Origin: Prevotella sp.
GTDB taxonomy: Bacteria; Bacteroidota; Bacteroidia; Bacteroidales; Bacteroidaceae
Reading direction: 5' to 3'
Assembly (NCBI GenBank): GCA_017554105.1
Contig: JAFZIY010000031.1
Location: 248,001-312,000, forward strand
DNA length: 64,000 bases
The notes under the pieces are model-generated. The model saw only the letters and a list, made by a program, of their open reading frames with translations, searched no databases and was not told where the DNA came from. Below are positions 1,830 to 14,984 of the stretch, one piece after another (within the stretch, counting starts at the first letter, position 1; each line of letters begins with the position of its first letter). The position numbers and the translations under genes are program-made.

Positions 1830-3332
1830 TTATCTTTTCATTTTCAGTTTCAATTCAAAGTAATATGGCTCTCCGTCCGACAATTTCTTGTAACTGTCAT
1901 AGATGCCTTGCAGCAGGTACTTCAGTCCGAAGGTAGTACTTGCGAAGTCAGCAGCAGCAAGGTTGGTATCGTCGTCGGTCGAACTCGTTGCTATCCATTC
2001 TGGCAGACGGTTAAGCAAACGGATATTCACATCCTGGTCTTGCTTCAGCGCGTCCATCTTCAATGTTATGATATGAGTGGCCTTGTCAAGATACTTCTTG
2101 TTGTTGGAGTTACGGTCGTCGGCAGTGATGGCACGTATAGACTTTATCTCTATCTTGTCATCGCTCTTTACCTGATAGTTCTGCGGATTGGTGAGGTAGT
2201 CGTTTTCTATGAGCATCGAACCAAGGTTCACAGCCACTTCTATCTGCAAGTCAGCAGAGTTGCGGTCAGGCTTCACACTCTCTATACTCGTGATTCGCTC
2301 TGTCTGACCTTTCGTTGGACGGAACGTGCCACGACTCTCCTTGCCCTTCAGCATGATTGTGTAGAAAGGCTTATAGGCATCACTGGCATCGAAGAGATAC
2401 TTATGCTCAAAGCCCTCCAGTTCACCAAACTTCGAGAATGCAGAATACTGCGGGTCGTTGGTAAGTCGTGCTATATCATCGTTGTCGCCGACAATAAGCA
2501 GGTAATAAGGACGCTTGCCATTATAGTTGACACCCTTCGACGGGGTGTTATAAGGATAATAGTTACCAACATAACTGCTCACCATCTTCATTATAAGCAT
2601 CGACTTATGGCTTGCCTTCTCCTTGAAGATGGCATTGGCCACACCCTCAGCCTCGTTCAGCACCTTCTGCTTGTTTACGGTTGTGAGGTCACGCGTAGAG
2701 TAAATCATGTCTGATGCAAGAATACTCAACTCGTTGCGCTCATTCTTGTTCAGTATAGAGTCGAGAATCAGACCGAAGTCAGTGTACTTAGGGTCACCTA
2801 TCCCTTCTGTCGTCTTGAAGATATTGTTGTCAGTGATAAACTCCTTGTACGACTTCGGGTAGTTATAAACAGCGTCGTTCACCACGAATATGATGTTATC
2901 CTCATTTTCAGAAGGCAGAGAGTTCAGCATCTTCACGATGGCCTTCTTGAATTCTCCAGATGTCTGCGGAGAGTCGTAGCTCACCATGCTGCCCGAACGC
3001 TCAAGATAGAACTTCACCGTGAGGTAACGCTTGTCTGCCTTGCCCCAGAATGTAATGTCCTTCTGGTCCTTTCCCTTTGAGAACACTTTCTGGATGTATT
3101 CCTTTACCGCATCCTCATCAAGGCGTCCGTCCTTGTAGAACTCCTTCATGTGAGCCTTATTGGCGTCCATGAAGTCGGCTATCTTCTTCCAATCGTCGCT
3201 GTCAATGGTGGCATCCTTGTCTGCAAGTTCACGCACCAGCGAAGCCAGTTCTTTCTTTGAACCGTCAGAGCAAGCGAAAGCCATCGGGAGCGTCAATGCC
3301 GCCACGAGAGCAATCTTGAAAAATCTTCTCAT
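1830..3332 (-). CDS. Lipoprotein with a von Willebrand factor A-like domain
   Basis: A 500-residue protein. The start at 3332 was chosen because it gives a proper lipoprotein signal, MRRFFK...LPMAFACSDGS, with the lipid-accepting Cys at residue 21; a longer frame upstream would bury it. Residues 106-116 read VKFYLERSGSM, the position of the VWA metal site DxSxS, but with Glu in place of the first Asp. A later LASDMIYS segment matches the usual (T/S)DG strand of the fold. A C-terminal beta-rich part (about 350-480) is unassigned. A TACTTTTG promoter box lies on the minus strand at 3382-3389, so the gene heads its own transcript with the membrane and tubulin-like genes behind it. VWA domains usually mediate metal-dependent protein contacts; the partner here is unknown. 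Confidence 0.7.
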   Translation of the reverse strand: MRRFFKIALVAALTLPMAFACSDGSKKELASLVRELADKDATIDSDDWKKIADFMDANKAHMKEFYKDGRLDEDAVKEYIQKVFSKGKDQKDITFWGKADKRYLTVKFYLERSGSMVSYDSPQTSGEFKKAIVKMLNSLPSENEDNIIFVVNDAVYNYPKSYKEFITDNNIFKTTEGIGDPKYTDFGLILDSILNKNERNELSILASDMIYSTRDLTTVNKQKVLNEAEGVANAIFKEKASHKSMLIMKMVSSYVGNYYPYNTPSKGVNYNGKRPYYLLIVGDNDDIARLTNDPQYSAFSKFGELEGFEHKYLFDASDAYKPFYTIMLKGKESRGTFRPTKGQTERITSIESVKPDRNSADLQIEVAVNLGSMLIENDYLTNPQNYQVKSDDKIEIKSIRAITADDRNSNNKKYLDKATHIITLKMDALKQDQDVNIRLLNRLPEWIATSSTDDDTNLAAADFASTTFGLKYLLQGIYDSYKKLSDGEPYYFELKLKMKR

Positions 3333-3381
3333 TCCTGTTTTTAATTTGGTTTGCAATATAATATGTAGTGCATTCGAGATG

Positions 3382-3389
3382 CAAAAGTA
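3382..3389 (-). promoter_or_regulatory. -7 promoter box of the VWA/membrane/tubulin-like operon
   Basis: The minus strand reads TACTTTTG, matching TAnnTTTG, about 50 nt before the chosen ATG at 3332. I see no good TTTG element at 19-20 bp upstream, so strength is uncertain. Its presence suggests the three downstream genes can be transcribed without the helicase gene. Confidence 0.5.
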
Positions 3390-3453
3390 CAACTTTTACA
3401 AACTAATCACTAATTTCCTCTGCTATTTTTTGTTAAACATCAGGGTTAAATTA

Positions 3454-6400
3454 TCAAGCCAGTGCCACCATTTCGTTGTTCTCAATCACGAGACCGCGTT
3501 TTTTCAGCGTCTCAAGAGCCATGTCGAGAGTTGCCAGCAACTGCTTGCCTCGCAACGCACTGCCCAGAAGATGGGCCACAAGACGCTTCAGTTCTTTCGT
3601 AGGTACACTCACTTGCTGCTCTACGATGTATCTCATGGCATTGGTGAGTTCCTCAATGGGTACCTCCTCAATGCTCCTTCCCTCAAGACTCCGATGTCCT
3701 TCATAGGCAACGCGATCGGCAGCGGTAGCGAAGACGGTGGTCATTCCTATCTCGGGATACTTCTTGCAGTCGAATGATTTTAGCACATCGCTTACGAGAT
3801 ACTGTATTCGCCATGGATTATCCACATGCAGGAGGTCTGCCAGACGGCGCACTATATATGCCTCGGTCACAGGCTGTTCCTCTGTTACAAGTTGCACTAT
3901 AATCTCCTTTATCCTGCGGATAGTCGCTGCATCGGTACTGTACCGCTGTGGCACGTTGCCGAAAGAGGCATGGCGATAGGCTGTACTCTCTGTGTCGGCA
4001 ATGCTTATTTCCTCCTCGTCATCAACATTGAACGCCTTGGGCTTGGTCTCCTCCACTGGCACATCAGGAGGCAGTGTCTTGTTGCGTATCCCTTCTATGC
4101 GTTCCAGAATACGGCTCACCACCTTATCCTTGTTCTCATACCAGTCAACGCTCCACACGCGAATAACCTCCCAGTTCAGGGAGTTCAGGACGTTAGGCTG
4201 CACTATTTCGCGGTCACGAGCGGTTTTTGTCTCATAGTAGTTCTTACCATCACAGAGGATGCCTAACATATAGTCTTGAGAGTTGTCTGGGTCGATAACG
4301 GCGATGTCAATCTTGAAGTTACTCCTTCCGACATTTGTCTGCACCTGATACCCGTGCTCCTCAATCTCCTTCGCCACAAGAGTCACGAGTTTGTTCTCCT
4401 CAACCGACGTCACCGCCGACTGCGGAATGTTCATCGTACCATTAGCAGCATATTCAAGGAATCGCTTCAGTCCCTCCACACCCTTTGCGTTACTGCGCTT
4501 CAGGTCTATCTGCTCAGCACGCATAGTGGAATAGACTATCATCTCATAGCGCGAACGGGAGACTGCCACATTGAGACGGCGCTCGCCGCCCTCGTTGTTC
4601 AACGGACCGAAGTTCATCGACACATTACCGCTCTTATCGGGACCGTAACCCACACTGAAGAGAATAACATCACGTTCGTCTCCCTGCACATTCTCAAGGT
4701 TCTTGATGAAAAGCGGCTCTTCGCTATGGAACGCCTTTGCCTCCAATTCGGGCTGCTTGGCAAGTTCGTCAACGAGAATATCCTCGATAAGGTTCTGCTG
4801 CACCTTACTGAAGGAGACAATACCGATGCTGCGCTTCGACAACTCCGGGTCGGCAAGTCGCCGCAACACCTCTGCTACAATAGCCTCAGCCTCGGCACGG
4901 TTACTACGGGTACGTCCCTTGTCGTATGTACCTTCTATCTGCACAAGGCTAACCTTCCTCTCGCGGTCATCAACAGAAGGGAAGGTAAACAGTCTGCCGT
5001 CGTAGTATTGCTGGTTGCTGAAAGCAATGAGCGACTCATGCTTCGATCGGTAGTGCCATGACAGATAGTGACCTGGCATCGACAGTGTGATGCAGTCGTC
5101 GAGAATGCTGTCCATGTCGTCAATGTCTGCCTCTTCCTCATCAACCTGCTGAGTAGCGAAGAAACTCGTTGGAGGCATCTGCTTCGGGTCACCGACACAG
5201 ATGAGTGCCTTACCACGTGCTATTGCACCAACTGCCTCACTCGTAGGCATCTGCGATGCCTCGTCAAACACCACAAGGTCGAACTTCTCGCCCCCCATGT
5301 CGATGTATTGCGCCACACTGATAGGACTCATCAGCATCACGGGACACAGTTTAGGCAGCAATGTAGGTATCTGGTCGATAATCTTTCGTATGCTCGTGCC
5401 ACGTCCGCCATTCTGTATGTTACGCTTCAGGATGCCCATCTCCGAGTTTGCCGCAGCAGCAACAGTCTGACTCGGTATGCGCGAGGCAAGACGACAGTAG
5501 AGTTCCTTCTTCGTGAGTTCTTGGAAGCCATAGGTTTCCTGACGGTATTTCTCTATTATCTTCTCGAACAACAAACCATTGAACATACGCAGTTGCTCGT
5601 CCTTATCCACCATCTGCATCGTCAGTCGGTGCAACATTCCCTTGCGGAATGCCATCAGCGCATCCTTTGCCGAAGCACGTTTCTGAACGATATAGCGAGG
5701 TATGCAGTGAAGACCCTGAGAGTAGAGCACAGCAGTACGGTCGGTGTATTGACTCCAGTCCTTCAGTTTATCCATATTGGCAAGCCAACGTTCAGAGAGT
5801 TTCGGCACCGCCGTGAGTCGTTCCTTCGTGCCAAACCCTATGGCGACAATCTGCTCTATCGAAGTCATCAAGCCCTTCAATGTGGCATACTGGGCCGAGA
5901 ACGACTTGTAGAGTGGCGTGTGCTGAGCAGTAAGTGGCAAGCCAGTATTGCCATCATTCGTAAACTTGTTGCTCGACAACAGTTGTGACAGACGGGGAGC
6001 ATAGCGCAATGACGGCTCTATGGTGTCCCACTGTTCGTTGTCGGGTTGAGCCATTATTCCGAAGATAGCCTGCATCATTGGCGAAGACGCGGCAGTGTTG
6101 GCGCTCAACTGCTGATACTCCTCCACTTTCTTCAGTGTTGAGGGTATTGTGTCAAACTCTGCCGTAGGACAGTATGTCGCAAACTCCTTCATGAAGTTCT
6201 TCTTGGCGAAATACTTCGGGATGAACCACTTGTCGTTCACCTGTTGCCAGCGTGCCTGCCACTGTCTCATGTCAGCCTGTAACAATGACGGACTGCATGT
6301 CTTCAGCAATGCCGACCGTGCCTCGTCGCGCTTCCGCCCACTATCCACCGCAGCGAGCAATCGCTGGTTTGTCACGGCATCAGCGTTATATTGCAGCAAG

Positions 6401-9171
6401 GCACTGTTTATCACCGGCATGGCAACCACTGTCTTGCCCAGATTGTCAGTCCACTCGAACCATGCATCACTCTCCGCACCTTTCACCGGCAACTGGTTGT
6501 AGGATGAGATGAGGTCGGCATACGCCTTGCGGTATTGCTGCAACAGTTGTTTCAGTCGATCGACATTGTCGAAAGAGTATTGTTTCATTGCGATATCGAG
6601 CAACGGATGGTCAGCAGGGTGCCCAGTAATCTCGAACACCGTGTCAAGGGCTGCGGTCTGTTCACCCCAACTATCCATCAGTTGTCGTGTCACCGTGTTG
6701 CCGTCGGGCAATCCATCGCTGAGTTCCTCGCCGTCAATGGACAGATACTCGGAAATGGTGTCATAGAGCGAATAGCCGTTGGAGTGCTTGCGGTGCAGGT
6801 TCTCCATGTATTTTATCAACTGCTGGCGGTCGGCAAAGAGTTGCTGGCTCGACTGCTCGAAATCCTCCGGCGACTTTATCCTTGTGACGTCGAGAGCCTT
6901 CTGCATCTGCTGAAGGAAATGGGTCTTCGACACTTTATTACTGTGAAGTTCCAGACAGAATGGCTCAAGTCCCACCTTCGCCAGACGACGCTGCACCACC
7001 TCAAGCGCTGCCATCTTCTCTGCCACGAAGAGTACCCGTTTGTCATGATACAGTGCGTTGGCAATCATATTGGTGATGGTCTGGCTCTTTCCTGTTCCAG
7101 GAGGACCGTAGAGAATGAAACTCTTGCCATTGCCACTCTCGATGACTGCTTCAAGTTGTGAGGAGTCAACATCCACAGGAATGGCAAACTCCGATGGCTT
7201 GGTGGCGCGGTCGGCATCCCTTGCGTCAACGGTATTCTCAACATCTGTCAGTTGAACCTTTCCTTCCATGAGCGAGCGCACCACCTCGTTCTCCTTCAGA
7301 TGCTCGGCATTGTTATGGATATCGTTCCACATCACGAACTTATTGAACGAGAACAGTCCCAGCAACGACTCCTCCATGACATCCCAACGAGACATCTCGC
7401 TTACCGACTGGCGCACTGCCGAGAGTATCATCTTCACGTCAACGCCATGCTCATCCTTTGGTAATGGATTGATGATGTTCAGGTTCACCTTGAACTGCTG
7501 TTTGAGCAGTTCAAGCATCGTGATGTTTATTATGATGTCTTCCTCACGCGTCCTTATGACATAGTTGTTCCCTCCTTTGCGAAGTATGTTGACAGGCATC
7601 AGCAATATCGGTGCGAAACGGGGCACCACGCTTTTCTCGTTCTCATACCATTTCAGCATTCCCAGCACAAGGAACAGCGTGTTGGCACCATTCTCTTCGA
7701 GTGAGTTACGGGATGCACGATAGATAAACTTCATTGCCGAGTCGAGTTCTCCCTGACTGTGATAGGATATGAGTCGGCAGTTGTCGCGTGCCTCACTAAG
7801 TGCCATCTCCTCAATGTCGGAAGCCTGCAGGCGCGAGTCATACATGCCCGTCTCCGTCGGTTCTATCTGTTTCTTGGGATAAGGAATGACACTGAAGTCC
7901 TTGCCTTCGAAGACTGCATCCTCGAGTTTGTCGATGCCGAACGACACAAATGGTATCACACGGCGACCGAGACGGCAGTTTATAAGATTGTTGCGAAGCG
8001 AGAAGTCAAGCAGTTTACGCTCCCATATCAGTTGTTTCGTTATCTGCTGCGGAGCCTGATCGAGGTGCAGCGCATAGTGGTCGAAGGTCTGTATCTCGTC
8101 GGTTGCATTGTCATGCTCCACACCCTCGTTGGCCAATACCCAGCCGTTATCGCTCATTATCCTTACTGGCAACGGGCGCACATTGTCGAGACGGCAACGC
8201 CTGATGTCAATGAAACAGCGGAACTGCTGGTCCACACGCAACTTCTTCTCGGCAGAACTGACCGCATCATCGAAGGTCATTGGATAAGACGAGGTTATGC
8301 AGGTGGTCTCCACCATAACGAGGTTGTTCACTCCGTCTGCACTCTGTTTCAGCAGGTAACTGGCATCGTCGCCCACGTCCTGAGAGTAGAACTGCTCGTT
8401 GAGCCATGCACCCACAAAGGCATGTCCGCTCGTTATTACAATAATCGGGAACAGTCCTATTGCCTCAAAGCACGATGCCATGAGAACTGTAGTGTCAAGA
8501 CAGGTGCCCAGTTTCTCTGTCAGTACACGGTCGGCAAGGCGGATGCGCTGTCCACGCTGCTCGAAACTTGCCATTGGCTCGCTATAGACAATGCCCTCAC
8601 CGCGCAATGCCTCATAGATGGAAGCCACCTGCATACGTACGCGGTTGCGGTCTTGTGTCTGATAGGCGTCCATTGCCGACGAACCAGTCCACTTCTCTAA
8701 ATACCGTGCCGCATTGGTTATGACACGCGAGAGCAATGGATGGTTGGGCGTGACGAAGGCAGCAAGCAGTTCGGGCATAATGCCGATACCTGCCCACTCC
8801 TCGTAGGCAAGGAGACGGATGGGGAGTTGTTGATTTACCTGTTCTTCACCAGCGATGCACAGTTTCAGTTCAAATGTAGTGTCGGTGGCTTCGGTAGCCT
8901 TGAGCAAGACATCTTTCTTTGCCTCGATACGCAACTGTTCTATCTGTACCCTACTGCCTGCGGCAATCTTCTCAAGATGTATCTCCGAGAAGTCTATCAT
9001 CTCACCGCCCACCTGTAGCGTGATGTCTTGCCAGTCTGTATCATCACTGTTTTCCACCACACAACTGACACAGGTCTTCACACCTGCCCGTGCCATCGCA
9101 TAGTTTACGCTCGGCAGATACTCGATTTCTATACTGCCCTTTGCTATTCCTGTAAAATCGTATCGTGTCAT
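3454..9171 (-). CDS. Very large SF1 helicase with DUF4011, Vsr-like nuclease and DUF3320 domains
   Basis: A 1905-residue protein. The ATG at 9171 is preferred because a TATATTTG promoter box lies at 9194-9201; the open frame continues 60 codons upstream with non-coding character. Order of domains: beta-rich N-terminus (1-110); a transglutaminase-like region (200-305) with TEKLGTCLD and SGHAF supplying a possible Cys224-His250 pair; DUF4011-type segment starting at IWERKLLDFSLRNNLI (about 380-560); AAA_11 helicase core with Walker A GPPGTGKS (about 689-696), DEAS box near 1303-1306 and GDPKQMPP; the second helicase half with QGDERDVI and RRLNVAVSRSR; a Vsr/MTES_1575-type nuclease (1590-1700) with IDIAV and LGILCDGK; and a DUF3320-like C-terminus. 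COG1112 helicases with this layout are associated with DNA processing and are common in defence islands. It is probably a separate transcript from the VWA operon next door. Confidence 0.85.
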   Translation of the reverse strand: MTRYDFTGIAKGSIEIEYLPSVNYAMARAGVKTCVSCVVENSDDTDWQDITLQVGGEMIDFSEIHLEKIAAGSRVQIEQLRIEAKKDVLLKATEATDTTFELKLCIAGEEQVNQQLPIRLLAYEEWAGIGIMPELLAAFVTPNHPLLSRVITNAARYLEKWTGSSAMDAYQTQDRNRVRMQVASIYEALRGEGIVYSEPMASFEQRGQRIRLADRVLTEKLGTCLDTTVLMASCFEAIGLFPIIVITSGHAFVGAWLNEQFYSQDVGDDASYLLKQSADGVNNLVMVETTCITSSYPMTFDDAVSSAEKKLRVDQQFRCFIDIRRCRLDNVRPLPVRIMSDNGWVLANEGVEHDNATDEIQTFDHYALHLDQAPQQITKQLIWERKLLDFSLRNNLINCRLGRRVIPFVSFGIDKLEDAVFEGKDFSVIPYPKKQIEPTETGMYDSRLQASDIEEMALSEARDNCRLISYHSQGELDSAMKFIYRASRNSLEENGANTLFLVLGMLKWYENEKSVVPRFAPILLMPVNILRKGGNNYVIRTREEDIIINITMLELLKQQFKVNLNIINPLPKDEHGVDVKMILSAVRQSVSEMSRWDVMEESLLGLFSFNKFVMWNDIHNNAEHLKENEVVRSLMEGKVQLTDVENTVDARDADRATKPSEFAIPVDVDSSQLEAVIESGNGKSFILYGPPGTGKSQTITNMIANALYHDKRVLFVAEKMAALEVVQRRLAKVGLEPFCLELHSNKVSKTHFLQQMQKALDVTRIKSPEDFEQSSQQLFADRQQLIKYMENLHRKHSNGYSLYDTISEYLSIDGEELSDGLPDGNTVTRQLMDSWGEQTAALDTVFEITGHPADHPLLDIAMKQYSFDNVDRLKQLLQQYRKAYADLISSYNQLPVKGAESDAWFEWTDNLGKTVVAMPVINSALLQYNADAVTNQRLLAAVDSGRKRDEARSALLKTCSPSLLQADMRQWQARWQQVNDKWFIPKYFAKKNFMKEFATYCPTAEFDTIPSTLKKVEEYQQLSANTAASSPMMQAIFGIMAQPDNEQWDTIEPSLRYAPRLSQLLSSNKFTNDGNTGLPLTAQHTPLYKSFSAQYATLKGLMTSIEQIVAIGFGTKERLTAVPKLSERWLANMDKLKDWSQYTDRTAVLYSQGLHCIPRYIVQKRASAKDALMAFRKGMLHRLTMQMVDKDEQLRMFNGLLFEKIIEKYRQETYGFQELTKKELYCRLASRIPSQTVAAAANSEMGILKRNIQNGGRGTSIRKIIDQIPTLLPKLCPVMLMSPISVAQYIDMGGEKFDLVVFDEASQMPTSEAVGAIARGKALICVGDPKQMPPTSFFATQQVDEEEADIDDMDSILDDCITLSMPGHYLSWHYRSKHESLIAFSNQQYYDGRLFTFPSVDDRERKVSLVQIEGTYDKGRTRSNRAEAEAIVAEVLRRLADPELSKRSIGIVSFSKVQQNLIEDILVDELAKQPELEAKAFHSEEPLFIKNLENVQGDERDVILFSVGYGPDKSGNVSMNFGPLNNEGGERRLNVAVSRSRYEMIVYSTMRAEQIDLKRSNAKGVEGLKRFLEYAANGTMNIPQSAVTSVEENKLVTLVAKEIEEHGYQVQTNVGRSNFKIDIAVIDPDNSQDYMLGILCDGKNYYETKTARDREIVQPNVLNSLNWEVIRVWSVDWYENKDKVVSRILERIEGIRNKTLPPDVPVEETKPKAFNVDDEEEISIADTESTAYRHASFGNVPQRYSTDAATIRRIKEIIVQLVTEEQPVTEAYIVRRLADLLHVDNPWRIQYLVSDVLKSFDCKKYPEIGMTTVFATAADRVAYEGHRSLEGRSIEEVPIEELTNAMRYIVEQQVSVPTKELKRLVAHLLGSALRGKQLLATLDMALETLKKRGLVIENNEMVALA

Positions 9172-9193
9172 AACATAGGTTCGTTTGATTTTG

Positions 9194-9201
9194 CAAATAT
9201 A
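9194..9201 (-). promoter_or_regulatory. -7 promoter box of the giant helicase gene
   Basis: The minus strand reads TATATTTG, a perfect TAnnTTTG, 23 nt before the chosen ATG at 9171. This box is the main reason for choosing the shorter start. No clear TTTG element was found at the usual distance. Confidence 0.6.
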
Positions 9202-9289
9202 CAAAGTTTTTCCAATAACAGTGTTTTGTATGATGAAAAAACTCAATATCTCATAAACTTTTCGTAACTTAGCGGGCGAAATCCAAATA

Positions 9290-10936
9290 ATGACGATGGA
9301 CAACAGGACACATCCTTTGAAAACGGACATTGCACCACCTGAGCGTTTCACCTACCCCTTCTGCTACGAGCCACATGCGCTGTGCAGGGAGGCGGCGGCA
9401 CAGGTGCAGCAATATATCAAGGAGCATGTCGACATACGGGAAGATGCTGACCGCGGCAAGATGTTCGGTGTCCTCATAGTCCAACCCCAAAAACCCACCA
9501 TCCCCCCACCGGGGGGACAAGAGGGGGGCCTTTTCCTCGCCGCATACAGTGGACTGCTGGCAGGACGCAACGACTGGGATTGGTTCGTGCCACCCGTCTT
9601 CGATGCACAGCAGCCCGACGGCAACTTCAAGACCCACGAGGCTGAGATTTCAGCCATCAATAAGCAGATTGAAGACATCGAGAATAATGAGAAGACAAAG
9701 GCACTAAGGGCAGAACTGACACAACGGCGCGAGGAGGAACGGCAAGCGGTGGCACAGTTCAAGGCGATGATGGAGAAGTCGAAGATGATAAGGGACCTCC
9801 GGCGCATGCAACATAACATCGAACCAACCGTCGCTGCCGAACTGATACGCGAGAGTCAGTTCCAGAAGGCCGAACTCCGTCGGTTGCAGAAGGCGCATGG
9901 TGCCTTGGTGGCACGTGCCGAGGAGGCTCTGCGTGAAGTGGAACAGCAGATAGAGTCATTGAAAAACAAACGACGCGAGATGTCCGACGCACTGCAACGA
10001 TGGCTCTTCAGCCAATACCGTATGCTTAATGCGAAGGGCGAGGAGAAAGACCTCGTTGACATATTCCACGACTACAAAGGAACCCTACCGCCTGCGGCGG
10101 CGGGTGACTGCTGTGCACCAAAACTGCTGCAATATGCCTATCAGCACCATCTGAAACCCGTGTGCATGGCTGAGTTCTGGTGGGGTGAGTCGCCACAGGC
10201 GGAGATACGTCATCACCTGGAGTATTACCCAGCATGCCGTAGCCGTTGCCTGCCCATACTGACATGGATGATGCAGGGACTCGAAGTTGACCCTAATCCA
10301 CAGGAGGACTGCCAACATCAGGCGCTACCGATAGTCTATGAAGACTCGAAAATGTGGGTTGTTGACAAGCCTTCGGGCATGCTCAGCGTACCAGGAAAGA
10401 TAAAGCGCGAGTCGGCATACAACATACTGAAGGCACGATGTCGTGAAGACGAAGAACCTCTTGTGGTACACCGCCTCGACATGGAGACCTCAGGACTGCT
10501 CATCTTCGCAAAAGATGGCGATACACAGCGGTGGCTGCAACGTCTGTTTGAGCAACGGAAGGTGGAGAAACGCTATGTGGCACTGGTGGAGGGGACTATC
10601 ACCTCGGGCAGCGGAATCATCGACCTGCCCATGCGTCCCAATCCTCTCGACCGACCACGGCAGGTAATCGACCACGAGAAAGGCCGCAAGGCAGTGACAA
10701 GATATGAGGTAATGAGCATTGAGGACGGTATAACCCGACTGGCACTCTACCCCGTAACAGGACGCACCCACCAGTTGCGAGTCCACTGTGCTCATACCGA
10801 AGGACTCGGAAGTCCCATCGTCGGCGACCGCCTCTACGGCCATCCTGCCGAGCGACTGATGCTCCATTGCCAACACATCAGTTTCGTCTCGCCCACTGGC
10901 GAACGTCTGCAATTCAATTCTGAAGTGCCTTTTTAA
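9290..10936 (+). CDS. RluA-family pseudouridine synthase with a long N-terminal extension
   Basis: A 548-residue protein. The C-terminal third is a classical RluA catalytic domain: IVYEDSKMWVVDKPSGML, then VVHRLDMETSGLLIFAK containing the HRLD motif with the catalytic Asp, then GRTHQLRVH. It should convert uridine to pseudouridine in rRNA or tRNA. Before it lie a conserved region (20-120), a charged coiled-coil (about 125-240) and a segment with spaced Cys residues (CCAPK, CRSRC). Bacteroidetes have RluA proteins of this length, so the extension is normal for the group. Unusual: residues about 65-80 (PQKPTIPPPGGQEGG) are encoded by a copy of the G/C-rich palindromic repeat found between genes elsewhere here, inserted in frame. 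A possible weak promoter, TAACTTAG, lies about 20 bp upstream. Confidence 0.88.
   Translation: MTMDNRTHPLKTDIAPPERFTYPFCYEPHALCREAAAQVQQYIKEHVDIREDADRGKMFGVLIVQPQKPTIPPPGGQEGGLFLAAYSGLLAGRNDWDWFVPPVFDAQQPDGNFKTHEAEISAINKQIEDIENNEKTKALRAELTQRREEERQAVAQFKAMMEKSKMIRDLRRMQHNIEPTVAAELIRESQFQKAELRRLQKAHGALVARAEEALREVEQQIESLKNKRREMSDALQRWLFSQYRMLNAKGEEKDLVDIFHDYKGTLPPAAAGDCCAPKLLQYAYQHHLKPVCMAEFWWGESPQAEIRHHLEYYPACRSRCLPILTWMMQGLEVDPNPQEDCQHQALPIVYEDSKMWVVDKPSGMLSVPGKIKRESAYNILKARCREDEEPLVVHRLDMETSGLLIFAKDGDTQRWLQRLFEQRKVEKRYVALVEGTITSGSGIIDLPMRPNPLDRPRQVIDHEKGRKAVTRYEVMSIEDGITRLALYPVTGRTHQLRVHCAHTEGLGSPIVGDRLYGHPAERLMLHCQHISFVSPTGERLQFNSEVPF
9485..9530. repeat. G/C-rich palindromic repeat inside the pseudouridine synthase gene
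   Basis: The stretch has runs CCCACCATCCCCCCACC and GGGGGGACAAGAGGGGGG, which can fold back on each other. It resembles the intergenic copies at 11111-11140 and 12875-12906. It lies in frame and keeps the gene open. Confidence 0.65.
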
Positions 10937-12791: not shown

Positions 12792-12874
12792 CAGAAAGAC
12801 AGGTTTAAGACATAAAGACACGTTTTAGACAAAAAGACATAAAAACAATTTTTATATAAGAGACATTATACAAA

Positions 12875-12906
12875 GCCCCTCCCTAGGGGGAGGGGTTGGG
12901 GTGGGG
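12875..12906. repeat. G/C-rich palindromic repeat between prsW and the RT island
   Basis: GCCCCTCCC and GGGAGGGGT arms around a CTAG centre, followed by TGGGGTGGGG. It is the most symmetric copy of the family also seen at 9485, 11111 and 55766, and may end the prsW transcript. Confidence 0.65.
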
Positions 12907-12910
12907 TTAA

Positions 12911-12945
12911 TAACTCCACACTCCTAATTCCTAACTCCTAACTCA
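12911..12945. repeat. Degenerate AACTCC-type short repeats
   Basis: About four words of the AACTCCTAA/TAATTCC type directly follow the G/C-rich palindrome and mark the left border of the RT island. Confidence 0.55.
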
Positions 12946-12982
12946 GCCGGTGGGGCTTTTCATAAAGATTTTTGACAACTTG

Positions 12983-13014
12983 TTTGCATATTATAAATAT
13001 TGGTTGTATATTTG
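12983..13014 (+). promoter_or_regulatory. Promoter of the RT island
   Basis: TTTG at 12983-12986 and TATATTTG at 13007-13014, with a 20-bp spacer, make one of the best Bacteroidetes-type promoters in the window. It precedes the 172-residue protein by 42 bp. No terminator-like structure separates that gene from the RT except the structured RNA itself, so one transcript probably covers the whole island. Confidence 0.7.
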
Positions 13015-13056
13015 CAATCAGTAAATCAAATTGCTAACTCATTAAAATTGGAAACA

Positions 13057-13575
13057 ATGGATTTTGGTAAGTTATTCTTTAAAGTTGTGGATCTCGTCAA
13101 GGACAATATCGCGAGTTCAAACAGCAATGAGATACCCAGACAACAATCCCGTCCCGAACAACGTCCTGTTTCCCAGCCAGAGGTGAAAATGGAAGTGGAA
13201 AGGACAGACGCTGAATGGGTAAACTATTTCAAGGAGATTCTGGCGAGTGAATTCCCATTGTACACGATTCGTGAAAACGTGCCGGTGACCGATCTGGCTG
13301 GATACGCCAATGACGAATTCAAACTATACCAGACACGCCCGACACAAGCCTATAAGGCTGAATGGGGACAGCCCTACACATTCGTTCTTGAAACAGGCGG
13401 CAGTGCCAAGGGAGTAGTGATGCTGGGTAATGGCCACAGCCACGACAGCAATGTGAAATACCTGATTGCAAGGAAGTATGCCCAGAAGATGGGACTTCCC
13501 TACATCAACTTCTACACGCAGATGCCCAACGAAAGAGCATACGTAATAGAACGCATTCGCAAGTTTTTGGCTTAA
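13057..13575 (+). CDS. Unknown 172-residue protein upstream of the structured RNA and RT
   Basis: I do not recognise the family. The N-terminal helix (MDFGKLFFKVVDLVKDNI) is followed by a Gln/Pro/Arg-rich linker (about 22-47) and then a compact alpha/beta domain (50-172). That domain ends with a strongly patterned block: GVVMLGNGHSHDSNVKYLIA, then GLPYINFYTQMPNERAY and VIERI. The alternation of hydrophobic strands with conserved-looking His, Asp, Lys, Asn and Arg suggests a nuclease-like or nucleotide-binding fold, but I see no confirmed catalytic motif. No signal peptide or membrane helix. The gene is the first in the RT island, reads in the same direction as the RT and ends 10 nt before the structured RNA. 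Whether it works with the RT or is only a neighbour is open. Confidence 0.8.
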   Translation: MDFGKLFFKVVDLVKDNIASSNSNEIPRQQSRPEQRPVSQPEVKMEVERTDAEWVNYFKEILASEFPLYTIRENVPVTDLAGYANDEFKLYQTRPTQAYKAEWGQPYTFVLETGGSAKGVVMLGNGHSHDSNVKYLIARKYAQKMGLPYINFYTQMPNERAYVIERIRKFLA

Positions 13576-13584
13576 TAACTAATT

Positions 13585-13718
13585 GAAAAAGGGGATGCAG
13601 CCATGCTGCACCTGCAAAGGAGGCAGCCTTATCCACATTTCCACGTTTTGCAGGTAACAGGACAAGGTATCCTCTCGTGATCCGCAATTTTGCGGATTCA
13701 AAATCATTCCCCTTTTTC
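13585..13718 (+). ncRNA. Candidate RT-associated structured RNA, closed by a 13-bp stem
   Basis: The 165-nt gap before the RT folds almost entirely. The ends 13585-13597 and 13705-13718 pair over 13 bp (GAAAAAGGGGATG with its complement) with one bulged T. Inside, in order: hairpin GCAGC-CAT-GCTGC (13597-13609); a 9-bp stem ACCTGCAAA (13610-13618) with TTTGCAGGT (13647-13655) enclosing a 28-nt loop; a small AGGA/TCCT hairpin (13659-13673); and a hairpin at 13681-13696, TCCGCA-ATTT-TGCGGA. Paired ends with stem-loops immediately upstream of an RT is the arrangement of retron msr-msd RNAs and of the ncRNAs of several defence RTs. The msd-like hairpin is short for a retron. The 3' arm ends in a T-rich run, so partial terminator activity is the main alternative. 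Confidence 0.6.
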
Positions 13719-13740
13719 TTTCATATTATTATACGTTTTC

Positions 13741-14970
13741 ATGCAGCCCAAACTTGTTTTCCAAAGCATATTATCACAACTGACACGGCAAGAGGTATGG
13801 GAGGAGTTTCTGGCCTACCGCCTGATGAAAGGCCGTTTCACGTGGCATGAGTTCGACGAAGCCGACAGTTATGTGGAACGGGAAGAATACCTTCCGCTGG
13901 CACAAAGAATCGTGCAGGGAGAAGGTTTGGGCATTCCCAAGAAGAAGATTGTCAACAAGATGGGTACGGGCAAGAAACGGGTGGTTTACTGTTTCGCGCC
14001 CGATGAGATGACGATTCTCAAAATCCTTGCCTTCAAACTATATCATTATGACACGTGGTTCGCGCCCAACTGCTATGCCTTCCGCCGGGGTGTGAAAGCC
14101 AGTGATGCCATCTATGACATCATTCGCGCTATCGGAGACAAGGAAATGTGGGCTTACAAACTTGACATCCACAATTACTTCAATTCCATTTCCGTTGAGA
14201 TCCTCTTGCCGATGCTGGCGGAGATGATGGCCGACGACATGCCTTTGTACCGCTTTTTTGAAAAGATGCTGACCAATGACAGGGTTGTCTATAACGGTGA
14301 GACAATCCATGAAAGCCACGGTGTGATGGCAGGCACGCCCACCTCACCTTTCCTGGCAAATGTTTACCTGAAAGAGGTAGACAAGTATTTCCATGATGCC
14401 CATGTCGTTTATGCCCGCTATTCCGACGATATCATCATTTTTGCGCCTGACCTTGAGACTTTGGAGGAACATAAAAGTCGGATGGAAGGTTTTCTCAGGC
14501 AATACCGACTGGAAAAGAACCCCGACAAAGAAAGGATCTACTCGCCCGATGAAGCCTATGAGTTCCTGGGATTCAAGTGCCACGGTCGTGACATTGATAT
14601 CTCGGAAGCAACCATCAGGAAGATGAAAGGCAAGATAAAACGCACCACCAAGTCGTTGATGCGCTGGAGCAGTAAGAACAACATCGAACCAGAAAAAGCG
14701 ATGAAAGGACTTATCAACCATTTCAACCGTGTGTTCTTTGAGAATGGGGATACAGAGTCGTTGACATGGTCGAGGTGGTTTTTCCCCGTCATCAACAAAA
14801 CCGAAGGATTAAAGGAGATAGACCATTACCTCCAACAGAACATCCGCTTCCTAAGCACGGGAAAACACAATAAAACCAATTACAAAACAGATTACGCCCA
14901 ACTGAAACAATTGGGATATAAAAGTTTGGTGAACGAATACTATAAATATAAAAAAGGTCACGCTTTTTAG
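13741..14970 (+). CDS. Reverse transcriptase of unassigned (retron/UG/group II-like) class
   Basis: A 409-residue protein starting at the ATG at 13741; an upstream in-frame TTG at 13690 lies within the structured RNA and is rejected. Motifs in order: RRGVKASDA (RT2a, about 114-122); KLDIHNYFNSI with the first catalytic Asp142; GVMAGTPTSPFLANVYL (motif B, about 194-210); YARYSDDIIIF with catalytic Asp229-Asp230 in a YSDD box; YEFLGFKCHG (RT7); and a helical C-terminal thumb ending KQLGYKSLVNEYYKYKKG. There is no maturase X domain, HNH endonuclease or integrase. The SP after the glycine motif excludes the SQ signature of diversity-generating retroelements, and the segment after YxDD lacks the typical retron LTFS. 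It is predicted to make cDNA from RNA, perhaps from the structured RNA 22 nt upstream. Stop codon lies inside the terminator shared with enolase. Confidence 0.9.
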   Translation: MQPKLVFQSILSQLTRQEVWEEFLAYRLMKGRFTWHEFDEADSYVEREEYLPLAQRIVQGEGLGIPKKKIVNKMGTGKKRVVYCFAPDEMTILKILAFKLYHYDTWFAPNCYAFRRGVKASDAIYDIIRAIGDKEMWAYKLDIHNYFNSISVEILLPMLAEMMADDMPLYRFFEKMLTNDRVVYNGETIHESHGVMAGTPTSPFLANVYLKEVDKYFHDAHVVYARYSDDIIIFAPDLETLEEHKSRMEGFLRQYRLEKNPDKERIYSPDEAYEFLGFKCHGRDIDISEATIRKMKGKIKRTTKSLMRWSSKNNIEPEKAMKGLINHFNRVFFENGDTESLTWSRWFFPVINKTEGLKEIDHYLQQNIRFLSTGKHNKTNYKTDYAQLKQLGYKSLVNEYYKYKKGHAF

Positions 14971-14984
14971 GGCATGACCTTTTA
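14951..14984. terminator. Bidirectional terminator between the RT and enolase
   Basis: AAAAGGTCA and TGACCTTTT form a stem with flanking A and T runs, so it works in both directions. It overlaps the RT stop codon and lies about 20 bp after the enolase stop. Confidence 0.75.

Follow-up and report, generated by a model that had tools for sequence, protein, structure and literature searches.

The element described here is a compact reverse transcriptase (RT) cassette at positions 12983-14984 of a 64,000-nucleotide stretch (the window) of a Prevotella sp. genome (GenBank assembly GCA_017554105.1, contig JAFZIY010000031.1, positions 248,001 to 312,000). The cassette comprises, in order, a likely promoter, a gene for a 172-aa protein, a 134-nt structured RNA, a gene for a 409-aa RT and a terminator-like hairpin. 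We hold it close to certain that the RT belongs to the UG26 family and that the RNA is its partner, and the 172-aa protein is a conserved partner encoded next to the RNA. The whole is probably a UG26-type, RNA-templated system akin to the defense-associated RTs (DRTs), and an antiphage role is quite likely. A preliminary description of this DNA had proposed the same three-part cassette, with which both the sequence and the open reading frames (ORFs) agree, and its RNA length of 134 nt matches the span between the ends of the closing helix.

Searched against PADLOC profiles, the RT matched RT_UG26 (PDLC03764) at 534.1 bits, with residues 9-405 aligned to positions 2-397 of the 398 in the profile; the next-best PADLOC model reached 115 bits and the UG17 model 109.6. 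Pfam returned an RVT_1 domain only, and no NCBIfam model scored above its own cut-off: the group II model TIGR04416 gave 126.9 bits against a cut-off of 300, and the retron models 67.3 against 235 and 23.3 against 600. In a tree of 29 rows, which held no DRT9, DRT10 or UG27 row and no class 2 reference rows, the 14 UG26 rows made up a single clade (support 100/100) with a long stem, separate from the group II and retron rows and from YMDD RTs that we take to be of the diversity-generating retroelement (DGR) type. DRT9 and DRT10 RTs sought for this tree were absent from the 158 genomes searched for each, and control genomes gave no match either. A retron identity is ruled out by the profile scores and the tree, and a group II identity by the TIGR04416 score, the lone RVT_1 domain and the tree. 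A DGR identity was rejected on the SP found in place of SQ and on the separate position in the tree, no search for a template/variable repeat pair having been made. These profile scores, the tree and the motifs bear out the preliminary description, which had read YSDD and SP in the RT and kept it separate from retron, DGR and group II RTs; among the tree rows tested it nests in neither a retron nor a group II clade. The same description had left the RT unassigned, a status superseded by the match of 534 bits and the place within the UG26 clade.

The YSDD motif is present in all 58 distinct UG26 RTs, and the catalytic aspartate is invariant in an alignment of 45 of 47 distinct RTs. A C-terminal motif could be parsed in 54 of the 58, every one with a tyrosine 6-9 residues further on; three of the other four show a C-terminal tyrosine by eye and the last is truncated. 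This conservation makes the C-terminal tyrosine of UG26 RTs a candidate protein primer. At two loci that are apparently one and the same system (L009 and L031), the RT ends early, at 349 aa.

The intergenic RNA, which the preliminary description had left without a family, is a member of the Rfam family RF03026 (RT-5), matching over 13606-13710 at 79.8 bits (gathering threshold 45.7, E 4.5e-14), and this match is the only one in the 3.12 Mb genome. Its fold has a z-score of -5.5, and none of 200 shuffles folded as well. We aligned 33 RNAs, picked for spread from 59 distinct ones, and found support for 41 pairs: 94.9% of cells were paired compared with 86.4% in shuffles, changes on both sides occurred at 19 pairs versus 12.1, and covariation was 0.268 versus 0.116, with none of 500 shuffles as high on any of the three measures.

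The helix ACCTGC/GCAGGT crosses the adjacent eight-pair stem and is therefore a pseudoknot. The eight-pair stem shows changes on both sides at six of its eight pairs in the 33 near RNAs and at seven of eight in 12 divergent ones. The pseudoknot helix is 100% paired in the near RNAs but invariant there at four of its six pairs, so support for it comes from the divergent set, in which every one of the 12 RNAs pairs at all six positions and three of the six pairs show compensatory changes (GCCTGC/GCAGGC, ACCTGC/GCAGGT, GCCTTC/GAAGGC and GCTTTC/GAAAGC). The structure line of RF03026 has no pseudoknot, and the inner hairpin that it draws is doubtful. As far as our searches reach, the pseudoknot is a new addition to the Rfam fold. 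This covariation shows that the RNA folds as a closed helix around the pseudoknot.

To follow the RNA independently of the RT, we searched genomes of the window's genus with RF03026 and found it in 36 of 398, the source genome included. Of these 36 loci, 34 have an RT downstream of the RNA, and two are on contigs that end 2 and 26 nt past it; the partner gene lay upstream at all 36, cut by the contig in one. Among 62 loci (L001-L062), which include some systems fetched twice, the RNA was present in 62, the RT in 60 and the partner in 60 by BLAST. Both loci lacking an RT (L039 and L060) have contigs that end just past the RNA; of the two lacking a regular partner, one (L003) starts inside the RNA and the other (L019) carries the partner in fused form. 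Ten divergent loci (L088-L097), whose RTs are 31-72% identical, all have the RNA, L097 weakly, so that the RNA accompanies UG26 RTs of 31-100% identity. An RNA model, R1, built from 12 divergent RNAs, matched 32 of 32 UG26 sources, 10 of which hold an R1 seed and match by construction, and none of 41 loci with other RTs or eno regions, among which 10 of 15 viral-contig RT loci served as controls. Five RNAs (those of L092 and L094-L097) fall below the RF03026 threshold yet match R1; four of them are R1 seeds, and the fifth, of L097, matches weakly (28.6 bits, E 0.0025).

Homologous loci thus keep the RNA and mostly the 172-aa gene, and the co-occurrence of the two that the preliminary description had proposed to look for was found in related genomes. 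The layout had also been likened to that of defense RTs that use an RNA, and a conserved RNA in cis beside a defense-type RT, PADLOC listing UG26 under DRT, is what we observe. Counting against the partner as a fixed component, no homologue of it was found in the stretch fetched around the deep-branch loci L093-L096, nor in that around L097; at L092 the contig starts too near to judge. Because these five loci show no partner homologue, we regard RNA and RT as the core and the partner as a feature of one branch. With a limit of 1e-40, the RT_UG26 profile found matches in 10 of 399 genomes of the family and 10 of 374 across the order (own genome included in both), in 1 of 395 across the phylum (the source genome itself) and in 2 of 44 of another genus (one already known). 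Named relatives that carry the cassette (16 loci) come for the most part from rumen-type assemblies of Prevotellaceae and Bacteroidaceae. At L014 and L040, about 170 extra bases lie between RNA and RT.

The most variable part of the RNA is the loop between the two pseudoknot stems (13635-13644), which has a mean pairwise identity of 30.0% in the 33 chosen RNAs, whereas other segments range from 59.9 to 98.0%. All 33 RNAs have different loops, 7-12 nt long. Arm-plus-loop strings from 61 loci come in 46 versions, and some sister RNAs have a loop in common (L036, L038 and L043); given this sharing and the choice of the 33 for spread, the loop is variable without changing constantly. On its position and variability, this loop is reasonably likely to be the template. 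A poly-U template of the DRT9 kind was considered and rejected because the stretch before the pseudoknot varies (GUUUU, GUCUU, GCUUU, AUUG and AUAG). At one locus (L016:5808-5984) the variable loop is about 36 nt long.

In the window, the loop and last stem bases read CCAC-ATTT-CCAC (13633-13644), an A-B-A' arrangement from which repeated copying would yield a complementary DNA (cDNA) with the repeat (GGAAATGT)n. Other loops of this form are CTAT-ACTT-CTAT (L006), CAT-AGA-CAT (L009) and ATT-ACG-ATT (L018). When loop tails were swapped between RNAs, a repeated word of at least 3 nt was found in 19 of 45 loops compared with 12.2 expected (p 0.0035), the best of 12 whole-set settings. When loops were shuffled, mirror and reverse-complement controls stayed flat. 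The 36-nt loop was dropped from both tests, and ten far loops in the shuffle test were delimited by hand.

Several results weigh against tandem repeats as the general product. The other whole-set settings of the tail swap gave p 0.005-0.073, and the two subfamilies alone gave p 0.03-0.14 and 0.12-0.49; words of at least 4 nt, as in the window, were not enriched (3 versus 2.5 expected), nor were words of 2 nt (36 versus 35.4). The loop shuffle gave 29 of 55 versus 22.8 expected (p 0.05, or 0.03 with stem bases held), with no enrichment in summed word length (p 0.24), and close relatives such as L007 have no 3-nt repeat. The A-B-A' pattern is suggestive here and far weaker than the 85-95% reported for DRT10; its weakness in both tests led us to reject it as a family-wide rule. 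Tandem repeats as the cDNA product are accordingly a tentative possibility, on the doubtful side.

The 172-aa partner has an N-terminal helix that is amphipathic by its moment, a linker and a conserved domain at about residues 50-172. The moment of the N-terminal 18 residues is 0.42-0.65 in 45 of the 47 partners listed and lower in two (L028 and L059), values for which there was no control set. An alignment of 45 of 47 distinct partners runs along their length and has 37 invariant columns between residues 58 and 166. PADLOC gave a weak match to RTasCOG2852 (26.7 bits) and no other, profile searches gave no SLATT match, and no relative was found among solved structures. Together with the hydrophobic segments of one relative (L098, below), these features point to a membrane-linked effector or regulator.

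Two loci depart from the usual order. The first (L098, a longer fetch of L019) holds two partner-RNA pairs in tandem (2735-5128): two RT-5 RNAs (3469-3570 and 5006-5109) with different loops, each just past a partner gene, and a single RT after the second RNA. One of its partner genes encodes two domain copies together with a CxxC pair and four hydrophobic segments, the other a CxxC pair and a single copy; Pfam zinc-ribbon matches at this locus fell below the cut-off. At the second locus (L089, 2799-7187), whose cassette is otherwise normal, partner and RNA lie together and two genes, by eye of the Trk potassium-uptake type, separate them from the RT. On a bold reading, these two loci tie the RNA to the partner, as a possible unit, and make it a trans-acting element; partner and RNA would travel together and be served in trans by the RT. 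That a single RT may read several templates, as the two-RNA locus suggests, is not described in the available text of the cited DRT papers, and it bears on the spread of telomerase-like repeat synthesis.

We propose the following sequence of events. The partner gene, RNA and RT probably lie on one transcript, and the RT would bind the RNA, as their constant co-occurrence suggests. It would then copy the loop held between the two pseudoknot stems, with synthesis probably starting on the tyrosine in its C-terminal tail. In the window, repeated copying of CCAC-ATTT-CCAC is predicted, on slender grounds, to give (GGAAATGT)n as single-stranded DNA. By analogy with the SLATT partner of DRT10, the partner would be an effector or regulator, probably working at the membrane, that responds either to the cDNA or to the complex of RT and RNA, and infection by phage would tip the balance toward growth arrest. 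A wider and rather doubtful idea is that UG26 systems are interchangeable partner-plus-template cassettes: the variable loop of each effector's own pseudoknotted RNA would write a private repeat DNA that the effector recognizes, and one telomerase-like, tyrosine-primed RT would serve one or several such pairs in trans.

Other explanations share parts of this evidence. The RNA might be a cis-acting leader governing translation of the RT or decay of its mRNA, the RT having no template of its own, like the abortive infection (Abi) RTs. The RT start codon does lie 22 nt past the end of the closing helix, and RNA and RT are nearly always adjacent; at L089, however, the RNA keeps its place after the partner gene while two other genes part it from the RT, one of the two L098 RNAs does not adjoin an RT, and a leader gives no reason for a pseudoknot to enclose a variable loop, so we consider this decidedly unlikely. 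Still less probable is a retron-like unit, in which the RT would prime on its RNA to make one fixed multicopy single-stranded DNA (msDNA) and the partner would be the toxin of a tripartite unit. The ends of retron RNAs are closed by a1/a2 pairing, the RNA here has its ends closed by an 11-bp helix, and the gene make-up is similar, but the NCBIfam retron scores lie far below their cut-offs and both retron RTs in the tree fall outside the UG26 clade. The partner might instead be a COG2852-like nuclease that cleaves phage DNA with the RT product as its guide or switch, as the weak RTasCOG2852 match and a predicted order of helices and strands resembling, by eye, the PD-(D/E)XK fold would allow. 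None of the 37 invariant columns is D or E, however; D86, E87, E102 and E159 come close to invariance but fall short of it, the position of an ExK motif is variable in L019-type copies, and the search of solved structures found no relative. A nuclease of this kind is thus improbable.

The remaining alternative, which we think unlikely but by no means negligible, is a domesticated host function, such as repeat DNA made for regulation or repair and not for phage defense. Three deep-branch loci from three genomes of one genus (L093, L094 and L096) have RNA and RT at one chromosomal place, between a gene that is YggS-like by eye and a lysine-exporter gene (Pfam name from one of the three), and this shared setting suits a housekeeping role. 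The Pfam families of neighbors at related loci (25 of 96 listed) are mostly metabolic, transport or sugar-degrading. Likewise telling against a defense reading, the 12 PADLOC families found among neighbors were each matched by one protein of the 93 scanned (of 175 eligible ORFs, with no background set for comparison). DRT9 and UG17 profile scores do not show kinship, because a group II RT scores higher on both. Against a host function stand the patchy presence within the genus (36 of 398 genomes), the flanking genes prsW, eno and pdxK, shared by none of 27 related loci, and the RTs of families f155 (L088, support 90/79) and f164 (L089, 97/97), which nest within the window's own family f1. In addition, a large helicase-like protein encoded about 4 kb from the cassette (3454-9351, minus strand) is a candidate defense gene, matching PADLOC PDC-S37 at 1165 bits and Hhe at 528 bits.

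Patchy presence, unshared flanks and nested RTs are also the better support for acquisition and horizontal movement. The preliminary description had instead pointed to dispersed repeats at the borders. On the upstream side, which was tested, such repeats do exist: a 111-bp stretch with short repeats (12855-12965) matches 48 places in the genome, counting its own, mostly over about 33 bp. With so many matches they are uninformative and do not mark acquired DNA. The module is missing from the eno loci of nine relatives, but none of the five with long flanks has prsW next to eno, so there is no clean empty site. Two RT-query scans and one RNA-pattern scan of viral contigs found no copies; a third RT scan, run with the RT alignment, gave 15 distant RTs whose best segments are 23-31% identical. 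No close copy came from the phage and plasmid searches, only matches under 60%, for plasmids among the 5000 records listed.

Both the RT family and the RNA family were already catalogued. The RT is a full-length UG26 member that nothing sets apart from its family; what is new beside it is the constant RNA and the partner. As far as our searches reach, the added pseudoknot, the variable loop, a partner family with a membrane form and the two-RNA locus are new. We found no literature on UG26 function, the role of RT-5 or RTasCOG2852, nor on a link between UG26 and RT-5, in searches whose scope did not extend to the RNA-motif paper of 2017 or the UG/Abi survey of 2022. Like the class 2 template-noncoding RNA (ncRNA) systems DRT2, DRT3a, DRT9 and DRT10, the cassette has a conserved cognate ncRNA in cis, the pairing of RT with cognate ncRNA being common to DRT9 and DRT2. 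DRT2 ncRNAs contain a long template region, unlike the RNA here, which also has no universally conserved poly-U template as in DRT9. A pseudoknot is shared with DRT2, where it is reported to have five pairs (PMC12596737) compared with six here.

DRT10 consists of a UG17 RT, an ncRNA and a SLATT membrane protein; a loop of low conservation, next to a stable stem and carrying an A-B-A' repeat, serves as its template, and priming is reported from a C-terminal Ser or Tyr (PMC12632851). Tyrosine priming is also reported for DRT9 and DRT3b (PMC12483538, PMC13174585). The cassette resembles DRT10 in having an ncRNA of similar size (137 nt there, 134 nt here), a stem-adjacent loop of low conservation, a partner encoded by its own gene and a C-terminal hydroxyl residue in the RT. 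It differs in RT family, with 109.6 bits to UG17 against 534.1 to UG26, in a partner that is not SLATT, in the weak enrichment of A-B-A' and in gene order, partner-RNA-RT here compared with an ncRNA upstream of SLATT in DRT10. DRT RTs turn small RNAs into unusual DNA, and a large part of the UG family is unstudied (PMC12632851); UG26 appears as a label for RTs in viral contigs in another paper (PMC10504277). With the present analysis UG26 gains a partner protein and a defined RNA partner whose fold includes an added pseudoknot, along with candidates for the template and for the primer residue.

Features of the cassette, in window positions
Feature	Position	Strand	Basis or detail
Likely promoter, TTTG-N20-TATATTTG	12983-13014	+	Read from the sequence by eye
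172-aa partner gene	13057-13575	+	ORF list
Structured RNA (Rfam RT-5), 134 nt between closing-helix ends	13585-13718	+	Rfam match, covariation, fold z
Closing helix P1	13585-13595/13708-13718	+	11 bp
Hairpin P2	13597-13609	+	
Pseudoknot helix, ACCTGC/GCAGGT	13610-13615/13650-13655	+	Six pairs, covariation
Second stem	13620-13623/13671-13674 and 13627-13634/13660-13667	+	Covariation
Hypervariable loop, candidate template	13635-13645	+	
Hairpin P5	13680-13697	+	
409-aa UG26 RT gene, motif YSDD	13741-14970	+	ORF list, PADLOC RT_UG26 profile
12-pair terminator-like hairpin	14952-14983	+ (minus in the scan)	Overlaps RT stop codon

The promoter sequence fits what we take to be the Bacteroidetes promoter consensus. 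A sigma-70-type scan gave 7 promoters, compared with 7.5 in shuffles, and 6 terminators, compared with 5.6; because these numbers do not exceed the shuffles, the promoter and terminator calls rest on inspection by eye and on position. Among the neighbors of related loci, one protein matched RT_UG29, another DRT RT profile, and one gave an RTasDnaG-like match.

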